DNA from: Flavobacteriales bacterium
GTDB lineage: Bacteria; Bacteroidota; Bacteroidia; Flavobacteriales_C; GCA-002722245
DNA: 64,000 bases
Assembly (NCBI GenBank): GCA_023251095.1
Contig: JAHEZL010000005.1
Coordinates: 1 to 64,000, forward strand
Reading direction: 5' to 3'
Both the position numbers and the translations under genes were made by a program. This document shows, piece by piece, positions 3,076 to 10,011 of this stretch. Position 1 is the first letter of the stretch, and each line of letters opens with the position of its first letter. The notes beneath the pieces were generated by a model. That model was not told where the DNA came from. It made no database searches and saw only the letters and a list, made by a program, of their open reading frames with translations.

Positions 3076-5376
3076 ATGTTCGAAAAAGTAAAGCAGTTTT
3101 TCCGTTACCTCTGGAAGAAAAAACGTTACCGTTATTCCATCATCGCCATTGTATTTTTATACCTAGTCATTCAATATAATTTCTTGTGGTTGGTTGGAAA
3201 CATGCCATCAGTAGGCGAATTGAAAGATCCTGATCTTCCGGTAGCTTCTGAAATTTATGCTGCCGACGGACAATTAATCGGTAAGTTTTTTCGCGAAAAC
3301 CGCTCGTCGGTGGAAATGAAAGACATCAGCCCTGTGTTTTACAAAGGACTCGTAGCCACTGAAGATGTGCGTTTTTATAATCATGACGGTATAGACTGGA
3401 AGGCCAACGGCGCCGTATTCTGGTACATGATCAAAGGCGACAAACGCGGAGGCAGCACAATCACACAACAATTGGCAAAAAACCTTTTTAAAATCCGCAA
3501 AGCCAATAAAGGTCTTTTAAGCTACATCCCGGGAATAAAAACAGCCAACGCCAAAATGAAAGAATGGATGGTGGCAAAACGACTGGAGGAAAATTATTCA
3601 AAAGAAGAAATCCTGTTGTTGTATATGAACACCGTTGATTTCGGTAGTAATGCCTTTGGTATCAATACTGCCGCACGCACTTATTTCAACAAAACACCCA
3701 ATCAGCTAAGCATTGATGAATGTGCCATTTTAATCGGTTTGCTGAAAGCCACCACCAGTTACAGTCCGGTACTCCACCCCGATAAATCCCTTGAGCGAAG
3801 AAACGTAGTATTGTCGCTCATGAAAAAACACAAAGTTATTTCTGATGACGATTACAAAAAATCCATCGCCAAACCTATCTCTCTGAATTTCCACGTAGAG
3901 AGTTCGGAAGACTGTAAAGTACCTTACGTTCGCGCAGCTGTTGCCCGTGAAATCAGCGAATGGTGCAGTGATAACGGTTATGACATTTACAGCGACGGAT
4001 TAAAAATATACACTACCATCGACATGGGTTTGCAAAAACATGCTGAAGAAGCAGTGGCCGAACACATGAAATCTTTACAGCATAAATTTGATGTGCAATG
4101 GAAAGATCAAAAGCCATGGACCGATTCCAAAAAACAGGAGATTCCCAATTTTATTGAGAACGCCATCAAACAAACCGATGCCTATCGCAATTTGAAAAAA
4201 ATGTGGGGAGAAAATGAAGACACCATCTACCACTTTCTTCGTGAACCTCATCCTTGTGTGATCTACACACACGATGGGTACCGCAAGGAAATCATGAGCT
4301 CCATGGACTCTCTGGCTTATTACAAAAAAATGCTGCACTGCGGATTTTTCACCATCGACCCTAAAGACGGACACATCAAAACCTGGGTGGGCGGCTGGAA
4401 TTTTAAAGTCACTAAATACGATCACATCGTGCAAAGCAAACGCCAACCGGGATCAACCTTCAAGCCCTTTGTTTACGCTACGGCTTTTGAGCAGGGCAAC
4501 GGTCCGTGTGACACCCGTGTCGATCGCTACATCCGACACGAATACGACGAAAATGGCGAACATCATGTATGGACACCCCACAATGCCAATCGCGTGTTTA
4601 CCAATGATACGCTTACCTTGCGACAAGGAATGGCAACTTCCATCAACAGTATTGCGGTTCAGTTAACGCTGGAATGCGGACCCGAAAACGTTGCCATAAC
4701 AGCTAAAAAATGCGGCATCAACAGTACGCTTGAAACCGTTCCTTCTATCGGTTTAGGTTCTAACGACGTTAATTTACTGGAGCTCACCTCGGCTTACGCA
4801 CCCTTCATCAACGGCGGTTATAAAGTGAAACCCGTTTTGGTGACTCACATTGTCAATCAAAAAGGAGAAGAAATCGCCCGTTTTACCGAAAACAGAGAAC
4901 GCGTTTTAACAGAAGAAACTGCATGGCTGATGTCGTATATGCTAAGAGGAACAGTAGAAGAACATGGAGGAACATCACAGGCCCTTTTTCAATATCCTAT
5001 TTTCGGCAACAGCCAGATAGGCGGTAAAACAGGAACTTCCAACAATTATTCCGACGGATGGTACATTGGTGTTACCACCGATTTGATTGGTGGAACATGG
5101 GTGGGAGCCGACGACAGATGCATACACTTTAAAAACTCAGCTACGGGCGAGGGAATGAAAACCGCTTTACCTGTGTTTGGTTTATTTATGTCGAAGGTTT
5201 ATGCCGACAAAAAATGTTCTGTCAAACCATCCCTCTTTCCTAAAGAACCATTCCCTATTGAAAAAGCACACAACTGCAGGGTTTACGTTCCTAAAAAAGA
5301 TACCGCAGTTGTTGTCGCTGATTCATTGATGATTGATGTGATTCCTACAGACACTATTCCTGAGGCAATAGATTAG
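3076..5376 (+). CDS. Penicillin-binding protein 1A, bifunctional transglycosylase/transpeptidase
   Basis: This 766-residue inner-membrane enzyme polymerises lipid II and crosslinks peptidoglycan in the periplasm. One membrane helix (about 20-40) anchors it. The GT51 domain shows ATEDVRFYNHDGID (catalytic Glu at 96) and RGGSTITQQLAKNLF at about 124-138. The transpeptidase domain shows the active-site SxxK at Ser460 and Lys463 (PGSTFKPF), an S-x-N motif in TSINS near 523, and KTGTS at 651-655. Length and motif order are those of class A PBPs. A good promoter precedes it, and no partner gene overlaps, so it is probably monocistronic. PBP1A is expected to work with elongation and division complexes. 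Confidence 0.95.
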   Translation: MFEKVKQFFRYLWKKKRYRYSIIAIVFLYLVIQYNFLWLVGNMPSVGELKDPDLPVASEIYAADGQLIGKFFRENRSSVEMKDISPVFYKGLVATEDVRFYNHDGIDWKANGAVFWYMIKGDKRGGSTITQQLAKNLFKIRKANKGLLSYIPGIKTANAKMKEWMVAKRLEENYSKEEILLLYMNTVDFGSNAFGINTAARTYFNKTPNQLSIDECAILIGLLKATTSYSPVLHPDKSLERRNVVLSLMKKHKVISDDDYKKSIAKPISLNFHVESSEDCKVPYVRAAVAREISEWCSDNGYDIYSDGLKIYTTIDMGLQKHAEEAVAEHMKSLQHKFDVQWKDQKPWTDSKKQEIPNFIENAIKQTDAYRNLKKMWGENEDTIYHFLREPHPCVIYTHDGYRKEIMSSMDSLAYYKKMLHCGFFTIDPKDGHIKTWVGGWNFKVTKYDHIVQSKRQPGSTFKPFVYATAFEQGNGPCDTRVDRYIRHEYDENGEHHVWTPHNANRVFTNDTLTLRQGMATSINSIAVQLTLECGPENVAITAKKCGINSTLETVPSIGLGSNDVNLLELTSAYAPFINGGYKVKPVLVTHIVNQKGEEIARFTENRERVLTEETAWLMSYMLRGTVEEHGGTSQALFQYPIFGNSQIGGKTGTSNNYSDGWYIGVTTDLIGGTWVGADDRCIHFKNSATGEGMKTALPVFGLFMSKVYADKKCSVKPSLFPKEPFPIEKAHNCRVYVPKKDTAVVVADSLMIDVIPTDTIPEAID

Positions 5377-5475: not shown

Positions 5476-6177
5476 ATGAAATTTGTATTGCCCTCTCTTT
5501 TACTACTATGCATGCTATTTACCTCCAATTCTTATGCTCAGAAGAACATAATAAAATGGAGACCCGCAGCTTTAACCTGGAACAACATCGATTTTTCTTA
5601 CGAAAGAGTATTGACTAACAATAGTTCTTTTGCCGTTAAAGCCGGAGGAATGATTCCTTTGGATTTTACCGTTGCCTTCAATAACTACAAAGCATCTTTT
5701 CAGGCAGCGGAAAATAATTTAGGCGGATATACAATGACGAAAGGAATCATGGGAGGTTTTTCAGTTCTTCCCGAATTTCGTTATTACACTGCAGCCGACG
5801 CTCCTAATGGTTTTTATGTAGCTCCTTACTTAAAATACTGGAGAGCCGGATTTTCTGCAACAGCAACCAATGACACTACTAGTTTCGCCTCTACTGTAAA
5901 TGCAAGCATCAATGTAATTGGCGTAGGTTTAGGTATCGGATACCAATGGGTAATTGGAGATGCGTTTACTGTAGACTGGAATTTCCTCGGATTGGGTGCT
6001 GATGCTTATATCTTCAATGCTAATGTAACAGGAGTAAACGCTACAGGCACCGCTAATCAAATCAAAGAAGCTTTTCCCGGAACTGTTACCACAACATCCA
6101 ATTCGGTTGACTATACTTCCTCTCCTCTGATGCAGTTTGGCTTTAAATCCAATTTCTCCATAGGATATATGTTCTAA
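5476..6177 (+). CDS. Outer-membrane beta-barrel protein (DUF3575-like)
   Basis: The 233-residue protein has a signal peptide ending at SYAQ and then alternating amphipathic strands with many aromatic residues (for example EFRYYTAADAPNGFYVAPYLKYW). It ends in an aromatic residue (GYMF), the usual signal for barrel insertion by BAM. The opening WRPAALTWNNIDFSYERVL resembles the DUF3575 family of small porin-like proteins found across Bacteroidota. The substrate, if any, is unknown. It has its own gap upstream and a strong shared terminator downstream. Confidence 0.8.
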   Translation: MKFVLPSLLLLCMLFTSNSYAQKNIIKWRPAALTWNNIDFSYERVLTNNSSFAVKAGGMIPLDFTVAFNNYKASFQAAENNLGGYTMTKGIMGGFSVLPEFRYYTAADAPNGFYVAPYLKYWRAGFSATATNDTTSFASTVNASINVIGVGLGIGYQWVIGDAFTVDWNFLGLGADAYIFNANVTGVNATGTANQIKEAFPGTVTTTSNSVDYTSSPLMQFGFKSNFSIGYMF

Positions 6178-6232: not shown

Positions 6233-8329
6233 TTATCCTATAAACCACCACACAAGGGCGAAATAGGAAATACCCACGAATATAATAATGCGGCGAACAT
6301 TCATTCCCCTCACCTTATCTTCGTTGTACAAGGCGTTGAGCACAATCACTATCATGAAGTTTACAAACACCACAACAAAGGTGAGCCAGAAGAGTAAATC
6401 GGCTTTGGTTAAATCGCTTGATTTAGGTGTTGATGCAGAGAAGGAAATGGAGAAGGCTACTATCGACATGAACACACCGATACTTACTTCTCCCATGGCA
6501 TCAAAAGTAAGATCCCGCATGAACAGCAAACTCAATGAAATTAAACCGATGAGCACCAAGGGTAAAATAATTTCGAGCATTGGTGTGGTAGGATTTCTTT
6601 TTACATCGAGTCGGAAATAAATATTTTTAAACTCATTTAATTCTTCCTGATTGATATCGGGATCACCGTGCATACCCATGCTTATTTCATTGTCGACAGT
6701 AACATAAAATCTCGTTTTTTCCCATTCGGTAATTTTAAATTTATCAATGGATTTTTTGTCGAGAGAAAAACTTTTCTGATCAAAAGAAACCTTGAGTTTA
6801 TTGGACGGACTCAGTATTTCGGCCCTGATGAATAATTCCTGCTGATCAAAAGGATATTCTTTGAGCTGACAATTCACATAAAATATTCCCGAGACTTTAT
6901 ACAACTTGTAAACCGTAGATCCATCCATCTTTTCAAACACCAGTTCTTTTGAACTTTCGTTTTGTTTCATGTTTTGAAAAATGAGAAATTTCTCTGCATC
7001 TCGATTGGTGGAATCCAGTTTTATCCAATAATAAAAATCAGAAGTGAAGGAATTTGAGTTCACATCGATGTTGTAAATATCCACGATCTCCATTCCGAAA
7101 AATAAATTAGGAATCACCTGTCGCTCCTTATTCAGCTGCAAAGGATAGGAGTTCAGTTTACCCGATACATATTCGGTGAAATACAATTCGGGAATGATGG
7201 TGAGCAAACTATCAAATTCATACAATTTATTTTCCTCCACTATCGTGGAATTTTTCAGTGAATGAAAAAAATCAATGAAATCACTTTTGTGCAGAGCAGT
7301 AGTATCGCTTTGGTATTTGAATTTGTTTTTAATAATCTCCACCGCATCAAAACAGCGCCCGACAAACATTGGATGATTAGGGTTTTCCAGATACTGAGGA
7401 TAGTTGTTTTTTAATTCCAAAATATCATCTGTCAGTTTTTTAGGAAGCGCATCGGTGGGACTGCTGATGATGATGAGTTCATTTTTATTTTTATCTCCAA
7501 AACCCCTTACCTTTTCGGGATTGAGGATATAAGTGTGGCCGAGAATTTTGAGATGACTGAAATGATCATCAATATAATTAATCAAATGATTGCCCACGTT
7601 ATTGTGCACATTCACGACCAATAAGGTTCCCTCCTCTTCAGGATTATTAGTAAAAAAGGCACTTAAGTCGTTGTAAAAATTTACAGAATCGGCTTGCGAA
7701 AAAGATTTTCCTTTGAGGGTAAAAAGTTTGTTGACTGCTATTCCCTTTTTCTTAAAAATTCTGAGATAATTTTCATGCAGCGGATAATCCTCTTCGGAAA
7801 TAAAATTGATTTTATTCACCTTCAATATCTTTTGAGTGAAGGCCGCTATGTCTTTAGGAACATTGTCGTTGTTACCGGTGAAAATCACGTTGGTGCCAAA
7901 ATCACAATTGTTTCGATCGGCGTTGATGGAAATTACCGGAATATTTTTTTCTTTAATGGTAGCCGCGCACTGCTTAATTTCCTGTCCCCATGTGTTGTCG
8001 ATTACCGCCACAATATTGCTGTCGCTCGCAATGCTGTCGTAAATAGAATTACTGATAGCGCCATCCTTTCTGCAATCAAAAGTTTTAAGTTCCAATTTGG
8101 TATAAGGCAAATCCACTTGCTGCAAATATTGTCGCAATGCAACTTCATGTAATTTATCAAACTTACTTTCCTTTTGAGTAGCCGAAGAATCCTTGATATC
8201 AGTGTATCTTCCGATGTAGGCGATGTATTTTATCTTTTTGTGATCCGACGATTTTCCGCAGGAAAAACTCAATGCAGTGCAAACTACAAGAGAAAGAATA
8301 AAAAGAGATGTGCTTTTTAAAACCGACAT
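6233..8329 (-). CDS. Pentameric ligand-gated ion channel homologue fused to a periplasmic-binding-like sensor
   Basis: This is a 698-residue protein. An N-terminal signal (1-24) ends at SFSC, possibly a loose lipobox. Residues about 30-340 look like a type I periplasmic ligand-binding fold: alternating strands and helices with VAVIDNTWGQEI, VISINADRN and LLVVNVHNNVG. Residues about 400-575 match the beta-sandwich of pentameric ligand-gated channels, with the pro-loop signature YPFDQQE near 492-498. Four membrane helices follow: M1 (TPMLEIILPLVLIGLIS, about 578-600), M2 (EVSIGVFMSIVAFSISFS, about 612-632), the M2-M3 loop STPKSSDLTKAD, M3 (about 645-667) and M4 (about 679-697). It is therefore probably an inner-membrane ion channel gated by a periplasmic ligand. 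Ligand and ion are unknown. The gene stands alone. Confidence 0.8.
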   Translation of the reverse strand: MSVLKSTSLFILSLVVCTALSFSCGKSSDHKKIKYIAYIGRYTDIKDSSATQKESKFDKLHEVALRQYLQQVDLPYTKLELKTFDCRKDGAISNSIYDSIASDSNIVAVIDNTWGQEIKQCAATIKEKNIPVISINADRNNCDFGTNVIFTGNNDNVPKDIAAFTQKILKVNKINFISEEDYPLHENYLRIFKKKGIAVNKLFTLKGKSFSQADSVNFYNDLSAFFTNNPEEEGTLLVVNVHNNVGNHLINYIDDHFSHLKILGHTYILNPEKVRGFGDKNKNELIIISSPTDALPKKLTDDILELKNNYPQYLENPNHPMFVGRCFDAVEIIKNKFKYQSDTTALHKSDFIDFFHSLKNSTIVEENKLYEFDSLLTIIPELYFTEYVSGKLNSYPLQLNKERQVIPNLFFGMEIVDIYNIDVNSNSFTSDFYYWIKLDSTNRDAEKFLIFQNMKQNESSKELVFEKMDGSTVYKLYKVSGIFYVNCQLKEYPFDQQELFIRAEILSPSNKLKVSFDQKSFSLDKKSIDKFKITEWEKTRFYVTVDNEISMGMHGDPDINQEELNEFKNIYFRLDVKRNPTTPMLEIILPLVLIGLISLSLLFMRDLTFDAMGEVSIGVFMSIVAFSISFSASTPKSSDLTKADLLFWLTFVVVFVNFMIVIVLNALYNEDKVRGMNVRRIIIFVGISYFALVWWFIG

Positions 8330-8436: not shown

Positions 8437-10011
8437 TTAAGCTAAATCCTTAGTCAGAAATTCCTTTCCGATTTCTTCCAGCTTTACAGAAGGACCGCCT
8501 ATTTGGTGATGCCAGTATAAATTTCCGAAGCCGGCAGAGAAACCAAATTTATCGCCCCAGCCGTAAATAAACTCCATCATGTTTTTTGGTTTTTTGTCGT
8601 TGATCACCGCTATGATATTGGTAAACAATGCGCTTTCGGTATCATCGGCATCAGGGTTACTATCCTGCAAATCCCACAAAAACGCGGCAATCACGCCTTC
8701 AATCATCCATCCTTTATCATTTGAACCTGCTACTCCCGTATCAGAAAAACCGCTGAGCCATTTTCTGCTTGGCGCTTCAGGAGTTTCAATATCGGTTGGA
8801 AATGGTTTTCCCGAACTGTCTTTGTACCATGAGCCGAATAAAGCAGGACGGCAATCGCCTGTGTTGCCACCCGTGAGGAAAACCTGCATAAACTCAGCAA
8901 AGCCTTCTACCCAAGCATGTCCGCCGCCTTTATTGTCAATGGTATCCACATCATGTATCGCAATCACATCATACAAAGGCAAAGCGCCCAAAGCATGATC
9001 CATAACACCGTGACCGAACTCATGCGCCACCACCCAGTAACTATGAAAAACTTTACCGAGCACCATTTCATTCCAGAAACCATTCCACTGCGCCATGTCG
9101 GGCTTAACATCGGTACTTGGAAATTTGGTTTTAAATTTCGGCATCCACACCGAAGTTAAATTACCAATGGTTTTGCGGAAGAGGAACAGTTGATCTAAAG
9201 TAAAATATGCACGATCCCATTCATCACCTCCGGTAGGAAAAAAAGTACCGTAATCTGTTTGTCCCGGAGTATAAAAATTAGCCATGTTTATTTGAACAAT
9301 TTTCATTGGATCAATCCAGGTAGTATTGTTTTCCGTTTTAAACTGAACAATAATATCTTTCAAATCATAAGAGGTAGAATTCAAATATATTCTTTGCCAG
9401 TCTTCCATTTCCAGCACCTGCTCCTGCACCACCGAACCCTTATTAAAAACTACAATTTTAAAAGAATGTAGTTTTTGTAACACGCCGTTCCATGGATTAT
9501 GGAAACCTGCATCAAAAACGATATTGAAACTTTTATCGCCTTTTGCATCGCCCGCTTTATCTAAATTGATAATTACATGATCTCCTTCTTTATTTGATTT
9601 TGCAGAAGCAATGTTGCCCGCCAAACATTTTGCTTGCGACTCAATTTCTACCACGCCAACATCTCCATTTTTAAGATGGCCGATAAAAAAGGCAAAGGAA
9701 TCTTCAAAAGCAATTCCGTTTTCCAGTTTTCCGCTAACAAATACTTTTACTTCAAAAGGCAAATAAGCAGGATATACATTGAAAGAAAGAGCACTGTTTT
9801 CTTCTCTGGAAAAAGAATGAATGGCCCGTTCATTCACAACTTCCATAGTTTCACTCAACACCGATTTGAATTTCATTTCCGTTAAATCGCACGACGGAGT
9901 CAATTGGATATTTAAGGATAAACCATCGCTGGCATTTTTTCCTTTTAAAAATTGCGGCGCCGAAACAGAATATGAAAATCTCTTTTCCGCCACTCTTGAG
10001 TGTAGTAACAT
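8437..10011 (-). CDS. Zinc metallopeptidase (HEXXH), large uncharacterised
   Basis: The 524-residue protein carries HEFGH at about 329-333 (in VAHEFGHGVMDHAL) and an EGFAEF segment about 40 residues later. The second Glu of that segment would be the third zinc ligand, the gluzincin arrangement. The first 250 residues are beta-rich and probably form accessory sandwich domains. I see no signal peptide at the start used (MLLHSRVAEK), so the enzyme is either cytoplasmic or exported by another route. No peptidase family is assigned with certainty. It has its own terminator and no clear operon partner. Confidence 0.75.
   Translation of the reverse strand: MLLHSRVAEKRFSYSVSAPQFLKGKNASDGLSLNIQLTPSCDLTEMKFKSVLSETMEVVNERAIHSFSREENSALSFNVYPAYLPFEVKVFVSGKLENGIAFEDSFAFFIGHLKNGDVGVVEIESQAKCLAGNIASAKSNKEGDHVIINLDKAGDAKGDKSFNIVFDAGFHNPWNGVLQKLHSFKIVVFNKGSVVQEQVLEMEDWQRIYLNSTSYDLKDIIVQFKTENNTTWIDPMKIVQINMANFYTPGQTDYGTFFPTGGDEWDRAYFTLDQLFLFRKTIGNLTSVWMPKFKTKFPSTDVKPDMAQWNGFWNEMVLGKVFHSYWVVAHEFGHGVMDHALGALPLYDVIAIHDVDTIDNKGGGHAWVEGFAEFMQVFLTGGNTGDCRPALFGSWYKDSSGKPFPTDIETPEAPSRKWLSGFSDTGVAGSNDKGWMIEGVIAAFLWDLQDSNPDADDTESALFTNIIAVINDKKPKNMMEFIYGWGDKFGFSAGFGNLYWHHQIGGPSVKLEEIGKEFLTKDLA

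Follow-up and report, generated by a model that had tools for sequence, protein, structure and literature searches.

A Bacteroidota gene joining a Venus-flytrap-like sensor to a pentameric ligand-gated channel subunit

A single gene from a Flavobacteriales bacterium carries a type I periplasmic-binding-protein (PBP-I, or Venus flytrap) domain ahead of the core of a pentameric ligand-gated channel (pLGIC), and the same fusion is conserved in a family of nine Bacteroidota proteins under purifying selection. The gene lies in a stretch of 64,000 nucleotides (contig JAHEZL010000005.1, hereafter the window). The reading that we favor, with a probability of about 0.6, is that the product forms a homopentamer that conducts cations across the inner membrane, with gating set or tuned by a solute that the flytrap binds. 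PBP-I::pLGIC fusions were first described from sequence in 2004, and the Bacteroidota protein is a new, well-supported and uncharacterised member of it.

Gene locus and domain order

The 698-codon open reading frame (ORF) corresponds exactly to positions 6233–8329 of the window and is encoded on the minus strand. The preliminary description had located the gene correctly; the strand, which it did not give, is added here. The plus strand across the same interval is full of stops. The fusion gene is present as a single copy in the source genome, and the nearest genes are unlike it. Hydropathy analysis gave hydrophobic segments at the N-terminus (residues 1–27) and at M1 (580–609), M2 (611–633), M3 (640–670) and M4 (678–698). 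The features of the gene and its neighbors are as follows.

6233–8329, minus: PBP-I::pLGIC fusion gene, 698 aa (ORF; eight full-length relatives with 44–83% identity; single copy)
8258–8329, minus: putative signal peptide or membrane anchor, residues 1–24, with a possible lipobox LSFS-C24 (hydropathy; Cys in 6/9 members)
7145–8236, minus: PBP-I (Venus flytrap)-like domain, residues ~32–395 (Peripla_BP_6 in 8/9 members; beta/alpha model; fold match Z up to 14.6)
6596–7144, minus: pLGIC extracellular (periplasmic) beta-sandwich, residues ~396–578 (ELIC alignment; mean pairwise identity 0.72 over 396–560)
6836–6856, minus: Pro-loop YPFDQQE, residues 492–498 (P, F, D, Q and E invariant in 9/9 members)
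6236–6592, minus: four-helix transmembrane domain M1–M4, residues 580–698, with a short M3–M4 loop (hydropathy; fold matches to GLIC, ELIC and GABA-A receptors)
6431–6505, minus: pore helix M2 with D610 (-2'), E614 (2'), G618 (6'), M621 (9'), A625 (13') and I628 (16') (alignment with the GLIC pore helix, 4yeu)
3076–5376, plus: penicillin-binding protein 1A-type gene
5476–6177, plus: DUF3575 protein gene
8437–10011, minus: gene for a 524-aa protein without a Pfam match, 107 bases upstream of the channel gene

Both named domains exceed chance. A chance ORF was ruled out by homology and dN/dS, and an assembly or chimera artefact at the fusion was ruled out because eight other loci in other genomes carry the same fusion. 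The 524-aa protein has a metalloprotease-like HEFGH motif, and its gene could be co-transcribed with the channel gene. Elsewhere in the window, two adjacent minus-strand ORFs lie within positions 105–2062: one with a signal peptide (1601–2062) and a glycine-rich one (105–1580) that breaks off within sequence resembling the C-terminal region of secreted proteins from Bacteroidota. Together they look like one frameshifted surface-protein gene.

Family, distribution and selection

The search for the same fusion across Bacteroidota that the preliminary description had proposed yielded the eight full-length relatives, each carrying the whole fusion. The closest, L002, is 83% identical to the window protein. 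L003–L007 (59–62% identity) come from Cytophagaceae and Cytophaga and include the protein of Cytophaga aurantiaca DSM 3654 (L006), while L009 and L010 (44–45%) represent further families of the class. The distribution is patchy. The fusion occurs in 2/5 genomes of the window's genus and in four genomes of a 395-genome sample of the class, in which 26 genomes have bare channels only; these are proteins of ~325 aa that align from residue ~400 onward. Run at E 1e-10 against 395 genomes sampled from the phylum, the family profile recovered the window's own protein and no other, indicating that the family is sparse. A plasmid search gave one match, a Streptomyces channel aligned to residues 412–578, and a phage search gave no match. 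In a tree of the channel core, a branch with 100/99 support separates the nine fused proteins from the 26 bare channels, and one fusion event therefore suffices within the sampled set.

Conservation differs between the parts of the protein, with mean pairwise identities of 0.17 for the anchor, 0.50 for the sensor, 0.72 (the highest of all) for the beta-sandwich, 0.67 for M1–M3 and 0.32 for M4. Between the window protein and L002, dN was 0.03–0.14 outside the anchor and dS was ~1.1–1.4 or saturated. The fusion is thus kept under purifying selection in every domain except the anchor.

The anchor itself takes two forms. The putative signal peptide ends in a cysteine in six of the nine proteins (the window protein, L002, L003, L005, L009 and L010), whereas in L004, L006 and L007 a longer, uncleaved-looking hydrophobic membrane segment takes its place and no lipobox is present. 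The lipobox is good in L005 (LSAC) and L010 (LGGC) and weak in the window protein (SFSC). The earlier suggestion of a lipobox at SFSC is therefore plausible for the window protein, as five relatives also have the cysteine there, and does not extend to the three relatives with a membrane segment. From these sequences, a membrane tether seems to be kept in kind while the anchor chemistry changes.

Gene neighborhoods were also compared. In the four Cytophaga-type loci L004–L007, a gene for an HGSNAT_cat-type membrane acyltransferase (assigned by Pfam in L004 and by sequence likeness in L005–L007) ends 2–50 bases upstream of the channel gene. A ricT/PSP1 gene lies upstream of the acyltransferase gene, as do gldH(-like) and DUF4919 genes in L004. 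The acyltransferase gene does not adjoin the channel gene in the window, L002, L003 or L009, on which ground the acyltransferase is not claimed as a functional partner; a distant homologue is found elsewhere in the source genome.

Sensor and channel halves

The assignment of residues ~32–395 to a PBP-I domain is weak by sequence and clear by predicted fold. Pfam Peripla_BP_6 matched the window protein at residues 78–187 (E 0.0015) with 18.7 bits, below the gathering cut-off of 31.7, and the sensor is therefore termed PBP-I-like by fold and not a curated Pfam member; eight of the nine family members matched Peripla_BP_6 independently at E < 0.1. When the sensor by itself was searched against PDB sequences, the best match was 4gnr, with an E of only 0.08. 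The sensor was modelled separately (residues 28–401) at a modest mean pLDDT of 61, and both this model and the full-length one were built on only 7 sequences. The sensor-only model has two lobes of alternating beta/alpha structure, and its strands and helices follow the type I binding-protein order, C-terminal hairpins included. It matched the domains of mGluR, LivJ-like proteins and iGluR amino-terminal domains (ATD) at Z 13–14.6 over ~260 residues, spanning residues 31–398: mGluR3 (Z 14.6, rmsd 6.1, 276 aligned), 3hut (Z 14.2, rmsd 6.1, 262 aligned) and the GluK2/GluK5 ATD (Z 13.8, rmsd 5.8, 259 aligned). As the rmsd values are 5–7 Å, the modelled lobe geometry is not to be trusted. Residues 32–292 of the full-length model likewise matched class C GPCR and branched-chain-amino-acid binding domains. 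The preliminary description had proposed a periplasmic-binding-protein fold at residues 30–340 and had named an N-terminal domain of another type as the outcome that would speak against it. The type I fold is upheld by these matches and by Peripla_BP_6, while the proposed end is too early, since the C-terminal strands of the fold extend to ~395.

Invariant polar and aromatic residues are found in loops at the C-terminal ends of the sensor strands, on the cleft side, and the invariant set includes N112-x-W114-G115, N136-A-D-x-N140 (the D being D138), D155, D181-Y182, H242, Y267 and N270. Invariant residues are not significantly enriched in the cleft-side loops (18/60 vs 43/202, p = 0.11). In the weak alignment (E 0.08), the ligand-holding Ser and Thr of LivJ-type proteins align with Gly115 and Arg139 (His in two members). 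The LivJ-type amino-acid-binding residues thus seem not to be kept and do not point to a ligand of the sensor. C86 and C326 (window 8071–8073 and 7351–7353, minus strand) are invariant in 9/9 members and could form a disulfide. The only other Peripla_BP_6 protein of the genome, L039 (G000:C39:27987-28826), which was considered as a source of the sensor, is a LysM-type protein of 506 aa and not a typical transporter binding protein; its neighbors are presumably genes like those of GMP synthase and coproporphyrinogen oxidase.

Residues ~396–698 are identified from sequence as a pLGIC subunit of the Cys-loop superfamily, with homology over the core, a Pro-loop of the aromatic-P-F-D-x-Q form and four transmembrane helices including an M2 pore helix. 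NCBIfam LGIC_1 matched residues 486–673 (E 2.5e-9) and all nine family members, and TIGR00860 also matched the channel half (E 5.2e-6). The LGIC_1 score of 37 lies under the subfamily cut-off of 500 bits, which makes the window channel a divergent pLGIC member. The best PDB sequence matches of the channel half were ELIC and GLIC-type chains (E ~5e-9), and DeCLIC (6v4a) matched the window protein weakly (E 8.6e-4). In the full-length model, residues 414–698 gave fold matches to GLIC, ELIC and GABA-A receptors, and helices were predicted at 584–601, 609–630, 642–667 and 679–697. Confidence in this model is low, with a mean pLDDT of 51 and values below 50 over most of the channel, and it therefore does not show how the sensor and channel domains are linked. 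The Pro-loop, four helices and pLGIC core that the preliminary description had read from the sequence are all borne out, and P-F-D-x-Q-E of the loop is invariant across the nine members.

M2 was numbered by alignment with the ELIC–GLIC chimera 4yeu. As in GLIC, small and hydrophobic residues line the pore side of the helix, and the M2–M3 linker retains its proline (P635). Both the fold of the subunit and the pattern of M2 are compatible with a pentameric pore. Position -2' is D610 (Glu in GLIC) and is Asp or Glu in 9/9 members, and 2' is Glu in 9/9 members. Acidic rings at the inner mouth of the pore are the rule for cation selectivity (PMC9897478), and the GLIC-like M2 is therefore predicted to form a cation-selective pore. 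GLIC has Thr at 2', unlike all nine members, and this difference could instead be taken as a sign that the protein is a membrane receptor or scaffold that has lost conduction. This seems very improbable to us: M1–M3 is strongly conserved, the GLIC pattern of M2 is maintained, and cation-selective DeCLIC has also been reported to have two acidic rings at the inner pore mouth (PMC9897478).

The bare channels have a different M2. In 24 of the 26 from the class Bacteroidia (among L011–L026 and L028–L035), a near-invariant polar motif, [GA]-N-K-Y-[IV]-[IV]-[DE], occupies approximately 13'–19'. The same outer-half stretch is largely hydrophobic in ELIC, GLIC and the fused family, which gives the bare channels an unusual pore make-up.

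Proposed coupling of sensor and pore

In the favored reading, the periplasmic part of each subunit would consist of a flytrap sensor followed by a beta-sandwich of the usual pLGIC kind. Two tethers would connect the sensor to the inner membrane: a lipid or membrane helix at the N-terminus and the channel itself at the C-terminus. When a small solute of the periplasm binds in the cleft, sensor closure would be altered, and this change would reach the strongly conserved beta-sandwich, the Pro-loop and the M2–M3 linker, by which the pore would be opened or tuned. An extracellular chemical signal would in this way be turned into a cation flux.

Alternatively, gating may occur mainly at the protein's own beta-sandwich in response to an amine, protons or calcium, as in ELIC, GLIC and DeCLIC, with the flytrap acting only as an allosteric modulator or assembly domain, comparable to the one at the N-terminus of AMPA and kainate receptors and perhaps without a ligand. 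We consider this less likely than control by a flytrap-bound solute, but it is the alternative to be taken most seriously. It agrees with the higher conservation of the beta-sandwich relative to the sensor and with the presence of many iGluR amino-terminal domains among the top sensor fold matches. E504 and F567, which are invariant across the family, align with the amine-binding residues E131 and F188 of ELIC, as the same alternative would expect. Against it, 9/9 members have the sensor, its dN is low and many of its polar residues are invariant, and more drift would be expected of a domain that is only a spacer. The flytrap might also serve as a local concentrator or relay that hands its solute to the beta-sandwich site, an option that we regard as quite unlikely: both domains look ligand-competent, yet the sensor seems to be without LivJ-type residues while the beta-sandwich keeps the amine-site positions, and a common ligand is not indicated. 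Such a relay was put forward by Tasneem et al. for fused PBP-I domains (PMC549065). For the modulator role, DeCLIC offers a precedent, as its unrelated N-terminal domain seems to tune gating kinetics and not to drive gating (PMC9897478).

Comparison with known receptors places the window protein in an established architecture. PBP-I::pLGIC fusions were reported in the alphaproteobacteria Bradyrhizobium japonicum and Magnetospirillum magnetotacticum (Tasneem et al. 2004/2005, PMC549065), together with MCP-N/Cache fusions in Cytophaga, Microbulbifer and Methanosarcina, and a role in chemotaxis was proposed. The fusion noted in the preliminary description is real, but that description was silent on the publication of exactly this architecture in 2004 (PMC549065). 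The alphaproteobacterial PBP-I::ART-LGIC proteins and the window protein share the order of signal sequence, PBP-I domain, pLGIC ligand-binding domain and 4-TM domain in one polypeptide. They are likened here by architecture and not by sequence kinship, and the window family differs in its occurrence in Bacteroidota and in its putative lipid or membrane-helix anchor at the N-terminus. ELIC and GLIC share the beta-sandwich, four helices and Pro-loop, and M2 is GLIC-like, but they lack an N-terminal sensor, and the fused family is set apart by Glu at 2' and by Gly, a small residue, at 6'. DeCLIC resembles the window protein in having an extra periplasmic domain before the pLGIC core as well as two acidic rings at the pore mouth. 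Its extra domain consists of two jelly-roll (all-beta) lobes (PMC9897478, PMC12664993), whereas the window sensor is a predicted alpha/beta flytrap alternating strands and long helices. The flytraps of class C GPCRs, iGluRs and LivJ/LivK-type binding proteins have the same fold as that modelled for the window sensor, in which the LivJ-type ligand residues seem changed in the weak alignment. The partners of those flytraps are a 7-TM domain, the tetrameric pore of glutamate receptors or an ABC transporter, and that of the window sensor is a pLGIC pore.

Among pLGICs with an N-terminal domain, DeCLIC is described as the only one to have been characterised (PMC9897478, PMC12664993), and no structure or function of a PBP-I fused pLGIC was found in the later open-licence literature. 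A stronger form of the favored reading is that the doubly anchored flytrap is a true agonist site directly gating a pLGIC pore, with a ligand class new to both receptor types. We put this forward tentatively and would not count on it. If true, a single polypeptide would sense as metabotropic glutamate receptors do and conduct through a pore like that of nicotinic and GABA-A receptors. The compact, well-conserved Bacteroidota family, with the named strain Cytophaga aurantiaca DSM 3654 among its hosts, offers an opening to study the coupling between a flytrap and a pLGIC pore and the use that bacteria make of flytrap-fused channels.
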